A DNA stretch of 32,407 bases from positions 1 to 32,407 of the IMG/VR virus record IMGVR_UViG_3300049596_000436, one strand, 5' to 3'. A program made the translations under genes and the position numbers. Positions 11,232 through 31,859 of this stretch are shown here, in pieces. The notes under the pieces are model-generated. The model was given only the letters and a program-made list of their open reading frames with translations, was not told the DNA's origin and searched no databases. Position 1 is the stretch's first letter. Each line of letters begins with the position of its first letter. This stretch comes from a virus.

Positions 11232-12574
11232 TATACCGGTATTTTTACAATATTAAAGTTAAAATCTGTTACCCTTATATCTGCGGAGCCTGTATTTCTT
11301 ACAAACAATTCTACATAGTCATTTGCTACCATTTCAAGAACCGCTTGAGTACTTCCCCCATGTTCAACGTTTGATGTAGCTGTTCTAATTATACCCTCAC
11401 TTTCTGCTATTACAGTTCCGTTTTTTGCCACTCCAATTGATATAGATTGATTTGAAGTTGCACTCCTTACAGTTGCATTAATCGTAACTAAAAAAGAGTT
11501 TGTAAAGGCTCCATTGTAAGTTAATCTATTTGTTGTGTGTGTAAATTTCGAGTTCGTCCCTGTTGTGGTCGTTCCGCTTGCTTTTACCCATACGTTCACG
11601 TTAGAAACCCCAATAGTTGTATCTGTAGCGTTGTTAAGCATATACATGAATCCCTTAGTAGAAGTGTTAGTAATACCTACGCAATTAACAAATAAAGCCT
11701 TGTTATCCGTATATGTTACACCAGCCAAATAAGTACCACCACCTGAAAAGTTAACAGTATCTAAAATGTAACGTTCACTCGATACGGTTGCACTTGCATT
11801 TAGGTTAATTCCTGTTTCACCAGATAAGACTACAAAAGACGAATAAATAACTCTTATCCTTCTTGATACTGTAAGGGTGCTTGGAAAAATTAATGCAGTA
11901 GAACCACTTGTACAATCGAATAAACAGTTACTCGTTGCAATTGTTCCTATTGTACCGTCAAATGTTAGGTTACCACTATTTAAAAAAGCACTATCACTCA
12001 TTACAAAGTTTGTATAGTCCTTAATAGTCCCTACAGTAGCACAATCGGTAAAGTTCACACCAAACCAGTCGAGTGCGGTTGTTGTCGCATCCCCATCCAA
12101 ATCTAAAGCAGTTCCGTGAGTAATCGTTATATTTCTCATTGGCAACGAATAAACCGAAGTAATCAACGCAGTGGATGAGTTTAAACCTGTTGACTTAAGA
12201 ATACAATTCTCAGAGGACGCCCCTAATATTGTTGTGTTTTGACCTGCTACAATTCTATCACCTGTTAAATCTACTAAACCTGTTATATAATAGGTAACAT
12301 CATTTGCTAACGTTATAACACCTCCTACGGCTTCTGGAAAATCTACTTTTGTACCTACAAAAACAAATTCATCCCCTGTCCCACTCGATGCTTGCAAACT
12401 TAAAATACCAGCATCTGAACGTTGGTATAATATACCCGTGTTCGTGTTTTGGTAAAACTCACCAATATAAATATCAGTTGCTAACCAACTACCATCTCTA
12501 TGGTCGTTAGACGTTGGAATAGTAGGCACTCCAGCCCCTTTCTTAATTATTATTCTCCTTGTTTCATCACTCAT
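11231..12574 (-). CDS. Tail spike/receptor-binding protein, beta-helix-like
   Basis: ATG at 12574, overlapping the upstream gene by 8 bases; 447 residues. The N-terminus (IIIKKGAGVPTIPTSNDHRDGSWLATDIYIGEFYQNTNTGILYQR) is a virion-attachment motif I recognise in Bacteroidetes phages. Residues about 85-310 contain short Asn/Gly/Ser/Thr-rich turns spaced like a right-handed parallel beta helix. The last ~130 residues (VTINATVRSATSN, IGVAKNGTVIAES, VANDYVELFVRNTGSADIRV) have the look of a jelly-roll, TNF-like trimer tip. A surface receptor-binding role is well supported; the ligand is unknown. Confidence 0.8.
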   Translation of the reverse strand: MSDETRRIIIKKGAGVPTIPTSNDHRDGSWLATDIYIGEFYQNTNTGILYQRSDAGILSLQASSGTGDEFVFVGTKVDFPEAVGGVITLANDVTYYITGLVDLTGDRIVAGQNTTILGASSENCILKSTGLNSSTALITSVYSLPMRNITITHGTALDLDGDATTTALDWFGVNFTDCATVGTIKDYTNFVMSDSAFLNSGNLTFDGTIGTIATSNCLFDCTSGSTALIFPSTLTVSRRIRVIYSSFVVLSGETGINLNASATVSSERYILDTVNFSGGGTYLAGVTYTDNKALFVNCVGITNTSTKGFMYMLNNATDTTIGVSNVNVWVKASGTTTTGTNSKFTHTTNRLTYNGAFTNSFLVTINATVRSATSNQSISIGVAKNGTVIAESEGIIRTATSNVEHGGSTQAVLEMVANDYVELFVRNTGSADIRVTDFNFNIVKIPV

Positions 12575-19977: not shown

Positions 19978-20013
19978 AAGGGAGCAACATCACGTTTGAC
20001 CGACTACTCCCTT
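19978..20013 (-). promoter_or_regulatory. Leader hairpin before the late operon
   Basis: AAGGGAG (20013-20007) pairs with CTCCCTT (19984-19978) around a 22-base loop on the minus strand. It lies about 5 bases downstream of the expected start site of the promoter at 20024-20050 and 15 bases before the first late gene start. A weak T-rich stretch follows, so it may be a partial terminator or an RNA-stability or control element. Confidence 0.45.
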
Positions 20014-20023
20014 GTGCGCTTTA

Positions 20024-20050
20024 CAAATATAGTAATTTATTTTAGAATGG
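20024..20050 (-). promoter_or_regulatory. Promoter for the late operon (Bacteroidetes -7 box)
   Basis: TATATTTG reads from 20031 to 20024 on the minus strand, matching the TAnnTTTG -7 consensus. The upstream spacer is AT-rich (CTAAAATAA) but has no clear TTG at -33. It overlaps the 3' end of the DUF3127 gene and is the last such box before the long late gene run. Confidence 0.55.
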
Positions 20051-20389
20051 TAATGAATCAGATTGATTTACTTCTTGTAGTTCTTCTTTTACCACAGGCT
20101 TCATTGTTTCATCTTGGTAATTCATTTTCCACACTTCCAAAGTATTGAAATATTTTGTTTCCCCTTGTGGATTTACCCATTCTCTACCTCTTAGATTATA
20201 TGCAAGTACTATTTTATCGCCAGCTTTAAAAATATTCGCTAGATCACAATTATCTTGTGAAAGTTGAAATAATACGTCTTGTGGATATTTATCCTCTGTG
20301 GTTAATACAAATTCTCTTTTTTTATATTTCTCACTTACTACTTGTGTTGGTCTGATTTCTTTAATCGTTCCTTTTACTTCTGTACTCAT
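20042..20389 (-). CDS. DUF3127 single-stranded DNA-binding-like protein
   Basis: ATG at 20389, 115 residues. Contains VKGTIKEIRPTQVVSEKYKKREFVLTTEDKYPQDVLFQ, then GDKIVLAYNLRGREWVNPQGETKYFNTLEVWKM, a DUF3127 pattern in which an OB-like fold binds single-stranded DNA. The C-terminus SDSLPF matches the acidic-Leu-Pro-Phe tip of bacterial SSB, which recruits partner proteins. It is in the replication/recombination region, two small genes after MazG, and likely coats phage ssDNA. SSB-like function is inferred from the fold family and tail. Confidence 0.75.
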   Translation of the reverse strand: MSTEVKGTIKEIRPTQVVSEKYKKREFVLTTEDKYPQDVLFQLSQDNCDLANIFKAGDKIVLAYNLRGREWVNPQGETKYFNTLEVWKMNYQDETMKPVVKEELQEVNQSDSLPF

Positions 20390-24929: not shown

Positions 24930-24960
24930 CAAATATAACTTTTATTTTTAATATAAGTTA
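24930..24960 (-). promoter_or_regulatory. Dyad-class promoter element (clearest copy)
   Basis: On the minus strand TAACTTATATTAAAAA leads to AAGTTA, then TATATTTG: TAACTT (24960-24955), 13 bases, AAGTTA (24941-24936), an inverted repeat overlapping the -7 box. The 31-bp unit precedes the 69-aa gene by 21 bases. The -33 TTG of the consensus is replaced by the TAACTT arm. Confidence 0.65.
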
Positions 24961-25330: not shown

Positions 25331-26305
25331 TTAAAAAGGACAATCTTTGTCTTCTAGTGGTTTAAATTCATTTACTTCCCTACCTATATTCATAAGATTA
25401 GCTGGTTTTATCGGTTCTTCTTTTGGTATAAAAGCATCTGTTTGCACGTCTTTAGGTCTTTTAATAACGTCTTTACCACCACATTTAAACCCATAACCAT
25501 AATTATAATCAAACATAATAGGCTGTTCATTTAGGGTTTGTCTTCCACCTGTATCAGTATCTTTTATTTTTTTTACTTCTACTAATGTTGTAAACCTTAA
25601 GTTTTCGTGTCCATTAAAACGGTGGATAATTATAAAATCATCTGCTTTATTTGAAAATGGTTTACCTCCTTCAATATCATCCTTAAAAGGAAACATTATA
25701 TGACCCTCCCACGTGTGATTTTTTGGATATACAGATTGTTTACGACCTGCAGTAGTTGACGGATGAGCATTTATGTAAATAGTTTTTCCAGTACGTTTAC
25801 AAAACATTTTCAATTCGTTTAATACATCGTAATTGCCTGCATAAGTCATTGAGGATTTTAAAGCGTTAAAAGGATCTATTAAGTAAACATCTGTATTAGT
25901 TTCATTAAATACGTTTAAAAGCTCTTCTGGTGTGTACCTTTTAGTATTGTCTACAAACTTAAAATGATGCTCTAGTTTAATTAAACCTCTTTTGATTTCT
26001 AATTCACTCATTTGCTCTAGTGGTTTTGCTAAATACATTTTAAGCATATCTCTGAGCACTTTATAAGGTGGATTTTCATCCATGAACAAAGTGAAAGTTA
26101 AATTATGATTTGTTGCTAGTGCTAAAAAATACCACTCCATAAAATAAGTTTTACCTACGTTATCATGTCCTAAAGCAAAATTTAATTGTCCTTGCTTATG
26201 AACAAAAAACTCATCAAAATAAATACCTAATTCAAGCCCTTTAGGTATCAAACCATTTTTATAATCTAAAATAGTTTGTGTTGAATGTCCGTCTTTAAGT
26301 ATCAT
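25331..26305 (-). CDS. Replicative helicase-like RecA-fold ATPase
   Basis: ATG at 26305, overlapping the initiator stop as ATGA; 324 residues. Walker A GHDNVGKT (46-53), Walker B DVYLIDPF (139-146), and a conserved His in INAHPST (His181, sensor-like) define a RecA/DnaB/RepA-type P-loop ATPase. No N-terminal DnaB primase-binding domain is seen. The C-terminus ends DKDCPF, which resembles the SSB C-terminal tip. Together with the initiator it is the core of phage replication, unwinding DNA at the origin. Confidence 0.8.
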   Translation of the reverse strand: MILKDGHSTQTILDYKNGLIPKGLELGIYFDEFFVHKQGQLNFALGHDNVGKTYFMEWYFLALATNHNLTFTLFMDENPPYKVLRDMLKMYLAKPLEQMSELEIKRGLIKLEHHFKFVDNTKRYTPEELLNVFNETNTDVYLIDPFNALKSSMTYAGNYDVLNELKMFCKRTGKTIYINAHPSTTAGRKQSVYPKNHTWEGHIMFPFKDDIEGGKPFSNKADDFIIIHRFNGHENLRFTTLVEVKKIKDTDTGGRQTLNEQPIMFDYNYGYGFKCGGKDVIKRPKDVQTDAFIPKEEPIKPANLMNIGREVNEFKPLEDKDCPF

Positions 26306-27063
26306 ACTTTTCCTGTTTGTTGGTAAACGTGTAATACTAATTTATCAGTAATCTCTATTCCTTCTGGAGTTACAAATAAAACTTCTTTTTTACTTTCTTT
26401 TTGTGAAATAGTTTCATTCTTATACCAATCACTTTCAAAACCACCCCAACTTTTTTCAACACACTTTTCTAAAATCAAATTGATATCATTACCATTTAAT
26501 TCAACTTGTTTTATAAATTTATCAAATGCAGTTTTTGAATTAGTTAATTTTTTATTCTTCCTTACTTTTATCCATTCATCTACTAACTCAGAATTAAAAC
26601 CAAAAGATATAAGAGCGGAGCGAAAATTAAATGTAATATTTTTCTTTTCTTCTCTTTTCTCTTCTATTCTATTCTCTTCTGTATTACTTTCGTTATTCTG
26701 TTGTAATACGAACGTATTACTTTCGTTATTCGATTGATTTACTTCTGAATTACGTTTTGCCCATCTTTTAGCAACCGCATCTTTTGCTTTTTCACTTTTA
26801 TTTAAAGCATTTTCAAACTGTTCATCTAAAAAATAGATCTTTATAAAACCATCAACTTCTTTAATTACCTTTTTAGATAATAGGTTTTTATAATTATGTT
26901 CATCACACTCAATAATTGCATCTTCAATAGATAATTTTGTTTCGTTTATCCAATATAAACAACATAATTCCATAAAAGAAGATTTAGCTTCTGGTGTACA
27001 TCTTTGAATTTTTCCCATTTTCCACTCTGAAATAGAAAATTTAAACCATTGTAACTTTTCCAT
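26302..27063 (-). CDS. Replication initiator-like protein (contains iteron cluster)
   Basis: ATG at 27063, 253 residues. The N-terminal domain (MEKLQWFKFSISEWKMGKIQRCTPEAKSSFMELCCLYW) resembles DUF1376/replisome-organiser proteins (winged helix). A low-complexity middle has two NNESNT copies and an EENRIEEKREEKK run. The C-terminal domain (FRSALISFGFNSELVDEWIKVRKNKKLTNSKTAFDKFIKQ) is helical. Such proteins bind the origin and load the helicase, which is encoded directly downstream. The repeats lie inside the gene, as in the lambda O gene, and I interpret them as the origin. Confidence 0.7.
   Translation of the reverse strand: MEKLQWFKFSISEWKMGKIQRCTPEAKSSFMELCCLYWINETKLSIEDAIIECDEHNYKNLLSKKVIKEVDGFIKIYFLDEQFENALNKSEKAKDAVAKRWAKRNSEVNQSNNESNTFVLQQNNESNTEENRIEEKREEKKNITFNFRSALISFGFNSELVDEWIKVRKNKKLTNSKTAFDKFIKQVELNGNDINLILEKCVEKSWGGFESDWYKNETISQKESKKEVLFVTPEGIEITDKLVLHVYQQTGKV
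26639..26680. other. Homopyrimidine (plus) / homopurine (minus) tract beside the iterons
   Basis: Forty-two bases of almost pure T/C on the plus strand (A only at 26666 and 26671), coding a Glu/Lys/Arg-rich run on the minus strand. It abuts the iteron cluster at 26681. Purine/pyrimidine asymmetry near iterons is common in phage origins and can promote unwinding or triplex formation. Confidence 0.45.
26681..26731. repeat. Iteron cluster and palindrome: candidate replication origin
   Basis: The 18-base GTATTACTTTCGTTATTC is repeated exactly at 26681-26698 and 26714-26731 (33 bases apart). Between them is a perfect palindrome GTAATACG-AA-CGTATTAC (26703-26720). So GTATTAC or its complement appears three times in 51 bases. 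It is inside the replication initiator gene, next to a homopyrimidine tract, as expected for a lambda-type origin. Confidence 0.6.
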
Positions 27064-27065
27064 AA

Positions 27066-27260
27066 CTAATCTAATAAAGCAATTTGTTTACGAAGTTCTT
27101 TGCTTAATTTGATAGCAGTTGACTTATCTAATGTCACATGAATATTATTTATGTAATCATCATCTTCTATTATTCTTACATATACACGCTCTTTACCTGC
27201 CTGTACTTCGATTACTTTTCTGAAAAAATTGCAATCATGAAATTTTAAACTTACACTCAT
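27066..27260 (-). CDS. Small protein (64 aa), unknown function, first gene of the replication unit
   Basis: ATG at 27260, ending two bases before the initiator gene start. Beta strands then a Lys/Leu helix: SVSLKFHDCNFFRKVIEV, YVRIIEDDDYINNIHVTLDKSTAIKLSKELRKQIALLD. No obvious family. It is the first gene after the structured leader at 27304-27395, and may be regulated by it. Confidence 0.5.
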   Translation of the reverse strand: MSVSLKFHDCNFFRKVIEVQAGKERVYVRIIEDDDYINNIHVTLDKSTAIKLSKELRKQIALLD

Positions 27261-27303
27261 AATTTTTTAAAGGTTTTAAGATAACCAGTAACTTTTAGTT
27301 AAT

Positions 27304-27358
27304 AAAAAAACCCTAACAATTTTCACGGCTCCTACCTCGTTACTCATCATTAGGGTTT
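27304..27358 (-). terminator. Terminator stem S2 within the leader RNA
   Basis: The AAACCCTAA/TTAGGGTTT stem is followed by a run of seven T's (27310-27304). The 31-base loop is large and contains the 3' arm of S1, so S1 pairing (pseudoknot) can compete with or modulate it. It would stop transcription before the 64-aa gene at 27260. Confidence 0.55.
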
Positions 27359-27395
27359 CAAATTTCTTTAAGTTCTATATTGTAGGAGCGAACTA
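27304..27395 (-). ncRNA. Structured noncoding RNA / attenuator with interleaved stems
   Basis: Expected start is about 27395 from the promoter at 27401-27429. S1: GCTCCTAC (27389-27382) with GTAGGAGC (27335-27328), 8 bp. S2: AAACCCTAAT (27358-27349) with GTTAGGGTTT (27317-27308), 10 bp counting one G-U, followed by T's to 27304. The order S1, S2, S1', S2' is a pseudoknot or mutually exclusive pair. S2 plus U-tract is a terminator. No ORF lies within it. It precedes the replication genes, so it may be a small RNA or a leader attenuating them. Confidence 0.6.
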
Positions 27396-27400
27396 TTTTA

Positions 27401-27429
27401 CAAATATAACCTTATTTTTTAATATACAA
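27401..27429 (-). promoter_or_regulatory. Canonical Bacteroidetes promoter for the leader RNA
   Basis: TTG (27429-27427), 18 bases, TATATTTG (27408-27401). This fits TTG-N17-23-TAnnTTTG. It overlaps the stop codon of the NUMOD4 gene and agrees with the copy at 31371-31399 at about 26 of 30 positions. The start site should lie about 5-8 bases on, right before stem S1. Confidence 0.7.
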
Positions 27430-28382: not shown

Positions 28383-28413
28383 CAAATATAACACATATTT
28401 TTAATATAGGTTA
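28383..28413 (-). promoter_or_regulatory. Dyad-class promoter element before the exported pair
   Basis: Minus strand TAACCT, 13 bases, GTGTTA overlapping TATATTTG; core TATATTAAAAA. It differs from the 24930 copy by few bases and lies 24 bases upstream of the secreted protein start. No TTG at -33. Confidence 0.6.
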
Positions 28414-31045: not shown

Positions 31046-31076
31046 CAAATATAACTCTTTTTTTTAATATAAGTTA
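31046..31076 (-). promoter_or_regulatory. Dyad-class promoter element at the head of the early gene cluster
   Basis: Minus strand TAACTTATATTAAAAA, then GAGTTA overlapping TATATTTG; arms TAACTT and GAGTTA are 13 bases apart, a near inverted repeat. It precedes the 61-aa gene by 22 bases and probably drives the cluster from 31.0 to 28.4 kb. Confidence 0.6.
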
Positions 31077-31104: not shown

Positions 31105-31299
31105 TTACTTGTTGAGTAGGTAAAACTCCAGAAGTCTGTCATAATAAGCTAAATACCTACGATTTCCAGATTGAGATTTTAAATAAGAAATATTAAGATC
31201 AATGAATTTTTGAGGGTCTGAGATCCGGCCGTGTGTAAGATTAAGGTTTTTAAATTCCTTAATTTCTTTTATTTTACTTTCTAGGTCGATTAATTTCAT
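31105..31299 (-). CDS. Small protein (64 aa), unknown function
   Basis: ATG at 31299 chosen; a TTG six bases upstream is possible but less likely. It sits 8 bases after the U-run of a terminator (31307-31332), so expression needs read-through from upstream. Helical and basic: KLIDLESKIKEIKEFKNL, FIDLNISYLKSQSGNRRYLAYYDRLLEFYLLN. No family. Confidence 0.45.
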   Translation of the reverse strand: MKLIDLESKIKEIKEFKNLNLTHGRISDPQKFIDLNISYLKSQSGNRRYLAYYDRLLEFYLLNK

Positions 31300-31305
31300 A
31301 GGCAA

Positions 31306-31367
31306 TAAAAAAAAGGCTACCGAAATAGCCTTGATCTGTTTAATTTAAAAATTATGAAAAAGAATGA
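31306..31367 (-). ncRNA. Candidate small RNA between canonical promoter and terminator
   Basis: The promoter at 31371-31399 places a start near 31366, and the terminator ends near 31307, leaving about 60 bases with no credible ORF. AGAT (31337-31334) can pair with ATCT near the 5' end, next to the terminator stem. It repeats the promoter-RNA-terminator-ORF layout found at 27304-27429. It may alternatively be just a leader for the 64-aa gene. Confidence 0.45.
31307..31332 (-). terminator. Intrinsic terminator downstream of the endolysin gene
   Basis: Minus strand AAGGCTA (31332-31326), loop TTTCGG, TAGCCTT (31319-31313), then T's (31314-31307). A strong 7-bp stem with an eight-T run. It ends the late lysis operon (endolysin stop at 31380). 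The loop is identical to that of the terminator at 6413-6437. Confidence 0.9.
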
Positions 31368-31370
31368 GAT

Positions 31371-31399
31371 CAAATATAACTATATTTTTGGATATACAA
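31371..31399 (-). promoter_or_regulatory. Canonical Bacteroidetes promoter inside the 3' end of the endolysin gene
   Basis: TTG (31399-31397), 18 bases, TATATTTG (31378-31371). Nearly the same 30 bases as the copy at 27401-27429. It overlaps the last codons of the endolysin and would start an RNA about five bases later. Confidence 0.65.
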
Positions 31400-31859
31400 T
31401 ATTGTCTACTCGAATAATATCACCAGAATCAACTTTTTTCTTTAATTGTTGCCAAGTGTAACCGAAAGTTTTTTGAAAATGTGGATAGTCTTTAAACTTT
31501 TTCCAGTCACCGCCCCATTCGTAGTCTTTGCTTTTAAAGTACATTACAACCGTTTTAAAGTATGGCGAATTAATATCCCAGTCAATAGACTCAAAAGTTC
31601 CGTTATTGTCCTTGTCTCGCAAAATAACGACATCAAAAGCACAACCATAGTTATGAATTGATTCACCGCCACGAGCATTGGTTACTTTCGGACGTTGATT
31701 AAACAAAGCGTCTTGTTCTTTATTACTTCTATATACGTGCGAAAAGCGTAATCTAACACCTTTAGGTAAAAGATTATTACATTCTACATAATATTGCTCT
31801 AATTCCTTTCTTATGTTAGGATGAGCAAGTTTAATTCTACTTAACGTCAATTGATCCAT
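31380..31859 (-). CDS. M15-family peptidoglycan endopeptidase (endolysin)
   Basis: ATG at 31859, overlapping the holin-like gene by 23 bases; 159 residues. VanY/M15C motifs: VRLRFSHVYRSNKEQDALFNQ, SIHNYGCAFDVV (residues 67-78) with zinc ligands His69 and Asp76, EWGGDW (114-119) with candidate catalytic Glu114, and DYPHFQ (124-129) with third ligand His127. Residues 82-93 (DKDNNGTFESID) fit a calcium-binding EF-hand-like loop, as in the calcium-activated T5 endolysin. It cuts cell-wall peptides to release virions. No signal peptide, so a holin should give access. Confidence 0.85.
   Translation of the reverse strand: MDQLTLSRIKLAHPNIRKELEQYYVECNNLLPKGVRLRFSHVYRSNKEQDALFNQRPKVTNARGGESIHNYGCAFDVVILRDKDNNGTFESIDWDINSPYFKTVVMYFKSKDYEWGGDWKKFKDYPHFQKTFGYTWQQLKKKVDSGDIIRVDNIVYPKI

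Follow-up and report, generated by a model that had tools for sequence, protein, structure and literature searches.

A conserved promoter, leader and terminator unit before a DUF6965 gene, and a predicted kissing-loop RNA family, in a flavobacterial-type phage

Gene setting and the two units

The stretch analysed here in its entirety, hereafter the window, is the 32,407-base IMG/VR virus record IMGVR_UViG_3300049596_000436, with a G+C content of about 27-36%. Nearly all of its genes are carried on the minus strand, where the endolysin comes first, then a set of small genes, then a replication initiator with a primase/helicase (27063-25331), and last the rest of the genome. The phage that hosts both units described below is flavobacterial-type. 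Unit 2 lies between the endolysin gene and a short open reading frame of the DUF6965 family, and its features are as follows.

31380..31859, minus strand: M15/VanY-type endolysin, 159 aa (PF13539, E 1.5e-15; PHROG endolysins), the gene upstream of unit 2
31371..31399, minus strand: unit 2 promoter, TTG-N18-TATATTTG, which covers the final codons and the stop of the endolysin; transcription would start near 31366
31333..31366, minus strand: predicted unit 2 leader RNA, unpaired, U-rich and conserved, with the core CAUUCUUUU plus UUUUUAAAUUAAACA (alignment A1, n=9; model R1)
31307..31332, minus strand: unit 2 intrinsic terminator, AAGGCUA-UUUCGG-UAGCCUU and then 8 U, read from the sequence and from a stem that covaries in relatives
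31105..31299, minus strand: DUF6965 ORF, 64 aa (Pfam PF22292, E 3.5e-08), its ATG 7 nt past the U-tract of unit 2

Unit 1 is situated further along the same strand, at the head of the replication genes, and was brought to attention as the supposed twin of unit 2.

Unit 2 in the window and in related phages

The promoter of unit 2 (31371-31399, minus strand) has the sequence TTGTATATCCAAAAATATAGTTATATTTG. The primary sigma factor of F. johnsoniae recognizes a -7 consensus of TAHHTTTG, with AT-rich boxes near -18 and -28 and no clear -33 motif (PMC6847099). The element TATATTTG, shared by the two units and the relatives that were read, fits this consensus, and the AT-rich boxes around -18 and -28 recur in the phage; the promoters differ from the Bacteroidota type (TTTG or TAHHTTTG) in the -33 TTG, which units 1 and 2 carry in the window but relatives do not retain. 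A very similar intergenic promoter occurs in Flavobacterium phage FCL-2 and its relatives. From the fit of the -7 element and the FCL-2 promoter together, recognition by the host polymerase alone is a sound inference. The first-pass annotation had proposed as much, namely expression without phage factors, and this part of its claim stands, albeit for the phage promoters as a group rather than for a pair marked by the TTG.

By themselves, such patterns are unexceptional. The motif TANNTTTG is counted 55 times in the window against 52 expected from shuffles, and terminator-like sites number 6 against an expected 3.7, so that unit 2 becomes credible through its conservation. Relatives of the DUF6965 protein that are 81-92% identical (L305-L314) have unit 2 directly 5' of the ORF, even as the gene upstream varies and its end differs from the endolysin in five of them (L306, L310-L312 and L314). 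The element TATATTTGA is kept in every one of these relatives with upstream sequence read, and the leader carries CATTCTTTT, or a near variant of it, together with TTTTTAAATTAAACA (alignment A1, n=9). The terminator has the stable stem, U-tract and compensatory changes expected of an intrinsic terminator: its stem is either AAGGCUA/UAGCCUU, a variant thereof or the unrelated AGCCUAG/CUAGGCU, with 100% of cells paired and two-sided changes at 6/7 pairs, and this is the sole helix that RNAalifold recovers from the unit 2 relatives. Sequence thus shows directly a promoter, a conserved leader and a paired terminator, arranged in this order and kept among relatives. All of these relatives belong to one related phage group, so that the depth of conservation is limited, and in L316-L328, whose DUF6965 proteins are more remote at about 44% identity, unit 2 is absent. 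The promoter also lies over coding sequence; codon-level conservation at the 3' end of the endolysin, considered as a possible trace of the -33 box, amounts to 7/10 of the last codons identical, compared with a background of 58%.

The covariance model built on unit 2 (R1) scores 81 bits at the unit 2 locus, and its second-best match in the window scores 41 bits. That second match, at 6480-6409 on the minus strand, is a strong intrinsic terminator in its own right (GGGUAG-UUUCGG-CUACCC plus a U-tract) at the boundary between the gene 6985-6461 and the ORF 6399-6208. Rfam 15 returned no match at its gathering scores anywhere in the window, units 1 and 2 included, but weak sub-threshold scores only.

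We consider it fairly likely that the lysis gene and DUF6965 are separated by a conserved transcription unit, unit 2, yielding mostly a terminated short RNA, with read-through feeding DUF6965. Host RNA polymerase carrying the main Bacteroidota sigma factor would initiate near 31366 to give an untranslated product of ~60 nt with a conserved, unpaired, U-rich segment. Most polymerases would halt at the terminator, which would close the lysis transcript as well, and a minority would read through to express DUF6965, whose start codon lies 7 nt past the U-tract. We infer transcription itself, the size of the RNA and the use of read-through as the route to DUF6965. Upstream of its start codon, DUF6965 has a C (-3) and a U (-6) where adenines are favourable in F. 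johnsoniae, and weak read-through expression is accordingly the simplest reading. If termination were weak, unit 2 would be an ordinary gene leader, and the conservation of the leader could also act at the level of the DNA, as the initial transcribed region, rather than of RNA.

The arrangement could also be nothing other than an ordinary gene boundary, at which the promoter of DUF6965 happens to precede the terminator of the lysis operon and the leader is transcribed to no further effect. The terminator does fit the end of a lysis operon, pairing is confined to it and the leader is short, yet relatives with varied upstream genes and two terminator stems retain both this inverted arrangement and the leader sequence, and we regard this account as possible but rather doubtful. 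Regulated attenuation, in which a protein or a translation-linked signal on the leader opens the terminator ahead of DUF6965, would suit a terminator that abuts the start codon of a gene with no other promoter; no second promoter-like TATATTTG was found in the interval between terminator and ATG. However, a conserved antiterminator pairing was not found, and the stems are swapped while the leader is unchanged. Because the stem is exchanged under a constant leader, alternative pairing between leader and terminator is unlikely, and an autonomous terminated RNA or a fixed low-level leader is favoured instead. The conserved, mutually exclusive pairing of leader and terminator that marks an RNA-pairing attenuator or riboswitch is likewise lacking at unit 2, where the terminator helix alone was recovered, nor was a leader peptide ORF found in the window. 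Attenuation of this kind is thus unlikely.

A further candidate was a phage-borne, trans-acting small RNA that pairs with start-codon regions, as do FopS/GibS of Bacteroides thetaiotaomicron (RF04319). Unit 2 resembles these in its length of about 65-70 nt, its host-type promoter, its intrinsic terminator and its U-rich 5' part with UUUUUCAU, a motif common to unit 2 and the published FopS seed (PMC11697453). The Rfam FopS model gives a weak score at unit 2, and the mean pairing with phage gene starts exceeds that of dinucleotide shuffles, none of 300 reaching it. That score, 17.9 bits, is nevertheless far under the gathering threshold of 56; the eight relatives scanned gave no FopS match; and segments drawn at random from the antisense strand of this phage pair with its gene starts at least as well. 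Membership of FopS/GibS was rejected on the latter two grounds. Neither the likeness to FopS nor pairing with start codons withstood its controls, and we hold a trans-acting role of the FopS/GibS type for unit 2 to be highly improbable. Taken by itself, unit 2 amounts to a conserved unit of promoter, leader and terminator, a find of modest weight.

Unit 1 and its predicted kissing-loop RNA

The supposed twin of unit 2 led to a family of RNAs that covary strongly and match nothing in Rfam 15, present in uncultured flavobacterial-type phages and in isolated phages of Polaribacter and Tenacibaculum. Its features in the window are as follows.

27688-27419, minus strand: NUMOD4/HNH-like short ORF, immediately upstream of unit 1
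27401..27429, minus strand: unit 1 promoter, TTGTATATTAAAAAATAAGGTTATATTTG
27299..27396, minus strand: predicted unit 1 RNA, about 95 nt, from covariation over 45 relatives
27394-27390/27375-27371, minus strand: P1 (AGUUC/GAACU), the 5' hairpin, from covariation and RNAalifold
27389-27382, minus strand: H1, the P1 loop, GCUCCUAC, complementary to H1' GUAGGAGC
27357-27346/27320-27309, minus strand: P2, the terminator hairpin, from covariation and RNAalifold
27340-27338/27327-27325, minus strand: P3, a small hairpin nested in P2, from covariation and RNAalifold
27335-27328, minus strand: H1', the P3 loop, predicted to pair with H1 over about 8 nt
27310-27304, minus strand: U-tract, read from the sequence
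27066..27260, minus strand: 64-aa ORF downstream of unit 1, with no family match (cluster C3) and unrelated to DUF6965
26302..27063, minus strand: replication initiation (O-like/primosomal) protein (phrog_6451, E 1.1e-22), the first large gene past unit 1

The hairpins P1, P2 and P3 are recovered by RNAalifold without guidance. The unit 1 model (R2) scores 90 bits in the window, where the loop of P1 is complementary to that of the hairpin nested in the terminator, the feature that defines the family. A pattern made of nothing but the promoter plus P1 matched 100 viral stretches; genome contigs of bacteria and archaea, 257 Gb in all, gave 37 matches. The P1 loop has a perfectly complementary segment of at least 8 nt downstream in 62/72 distinct viral matches and in 0/37 of the bacterial and archaeal control matches. 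This comparison is the unbiased test of the kissing loop, because the 45 aligned members were preselected by script for complementarity. Among those 45, 16 distinct H1 sequences occur, each complementary to its own partner loop, with 4 chance cross-matches in 1750 comparisons; P3 likewise comes in 15 arm pairs that seldom pair once swapped. Unit 1 is, as predicted from these patterns, a separate family of kissing-loop RNAs with no Rfam match, usually heading replication genes. An RNA of this design was not found among known phage RNAs in the open-licence PubMed Central literature, and an earlier description elsewhere is possible.

The majority of unit 1 copies are followed by a small ORF, a replication initiator and a helicase, and a few head other genes. 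Those usual neighbours would suit a structure that acts as DNA, for example as a folded origin of replication beside the initiator gene. Against this, the host-type promoter and the U-tract are fixed in one orientation, and some copies do head other genes. Moreover, the closing pair of P1 alternates between A-U and G-U on the transcribed strand, which is an A-C mismatch on the other strand; the G-U option points to function as an RNA of the transcribed strand. Action as DNA is therefore very unlikely. A recombination site was also considered: attC sites reported in Polaribacter phage P12002L flank a methyltransferase cassette (PMC9892861). The unit 1 element of P12002L directly precedes the replication gene, in contrast to those cassette-flanking sites, which speaks against attC as an explanation of unit 1.

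The RNA is kept where the flank before it changes, as in L048, which has a different gene in place of the NUMOD4/HNH-like ORF. Five contigs (L226, L209, L232, L244 and L267) carry two unit 1 RNAs each, and in L226 and L209 the kissing-loop sequences differ between the two copies. Divergent variants of the same design stand directly 5' of the replication gene in the Polaribacter phages P12002L and P12002S and in Tenacibaculum phage Gundel_1, and further ones accompany unit 2 in its own phages (L344 from G001, L358 from G005). Across 117 further viral loci (about 2.0 Mb, both strands counted), the scan for divergent variants gave 0 matches. Unit 1 was not found in the stretches checked of Riemerella phage RAP44, Flavobacterium phage morran9-1 and Leeuwenhoekiella phage Arctus_1. 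Models R1 and R2 matched 0/249 Flavobacterium genomes, a weak negative given that the controls included no known positive genome.

The 5' UTR past unit 1 (27303-27261, minus strand; AAGTTACTGGTTATCTTAAAACCTTT..ATG) resembles the one found in relatives whose RNAs differ and in phage morran9-1, where the unit 1 RNA was not seen (loci L003, L006, L052 and L335). This segment is possibly a separate translational element.

Relation of the units to each other and to known systems

The first-pass annotation had treated units 1 and 2 as a matched pair. Much of its description is borne out: recounted as 30-mers, the promoters at 31371-31399 and 27401-27429 match at 26/30 positions; among seven aligned minus-strand TATATTTG sites, these two alone have TTG 18 nt upstream; both overlap the end of the upstream ORF (endolysin stop at 31380, HNH/NUMOD4-like ORF stop at 27419); and after each come non-coding sequence, a U-tract terminator (31332-31307; 27357-27304) and an ORF of 64 aa (31299-31105; 27260-27066). 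Its suggestion of untranslated terminated RNAs or attenuated leaders also agrees with what both loci, each with a host-type promoter and each conserved, look like. The pairing itself does not hold. A TTG at -33 was to mark a factor-independent pair, yet it is present in 20/59 unit 1 promoters (spacers of 16-20 nt allowed) and absent from the unit 2 relatives L311, L312 and L314. A match of 26/30 is also ordinary here: the sites at 31053 and 24937 match at 28/30, and that at 28390 matches each at 26/30. A special two-member promoter class was rejected from this pairwise comparison of the seven TATATTTG sites together with the relatives. The RNAs are unrelated in both sequence and structure. The two 64-aa proteins have no similarity, so that a common origin of their ORFs was rejected and the equal length is coincidence. 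Comparison in related phages, which had been put forward as a check, finds both units conserved, one as a predicted kissing-loop RNA and the other with a terminator hairpin alone, and model R2 has no match at unit 2 (31307-31378), which places unit 2 outside the kissing-loop family. Units 1 and 2 share their promoter type only.

Among known systems, a locus of Flavobacterium phage FCL-2 (record position 11923; L330 1201-1320) has a very similar promoter, a short leader and a strong terminator followed by a CDS, but lacks the kissing loop of unit 1 and has no match to model R2. The P4 CI RNA, in the leader of the alpha operon, is a terminated leader RNA of a phage replication operon. Unit 1, as a short structured RNA that would arise from a terminated leader before replication genes, resembles leaders of this type in its predicted layout; it differs in the predicted internal kissing loop between the 5' hairpin and the terminator. 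If transcribed as predicted, unit 1 would offer a well-defined RNA element open to experiment in phages that have seen little work on gene regulation, and for which isolates exist. Speculatively, regulation in flavobacterial phages may include a layer of short terminated RNAs placed at the boundaries of modules. The kissing-loop RNAs at the replication genes would then form a new class, whose loops, variable yet self-matched, set how much or how specifically those genes are expressed (e.g. for copy control or the exclusion of related phages), and unit 2 would be a partner RNA of the same early programme; we offer this as a tentative and doubtful proposal.

A possible third leader unit was also noted in the window.

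19978..20053, minus strand: TATATTTG promoter plus hairpin AAGGGAG...CUCCCUU, preceding the ORF 19962-19732

The inner part of its hairpin is conserved (GUAGUCGG..CAA..CG), and the unit as a whole is conserved in G001, G002, G003, G005 and G262, with 95-98% identity in three of these and about 80% in two. Separately, the minus-strand promoters at 31046-31053, 28383-28390 and 24930-24937 have a longer motif in common (AACTTATATTAAAAA...GTTATATTTG), in which TTATATT is repeated ~two helical turns apart, possibly as the site of a regulator.
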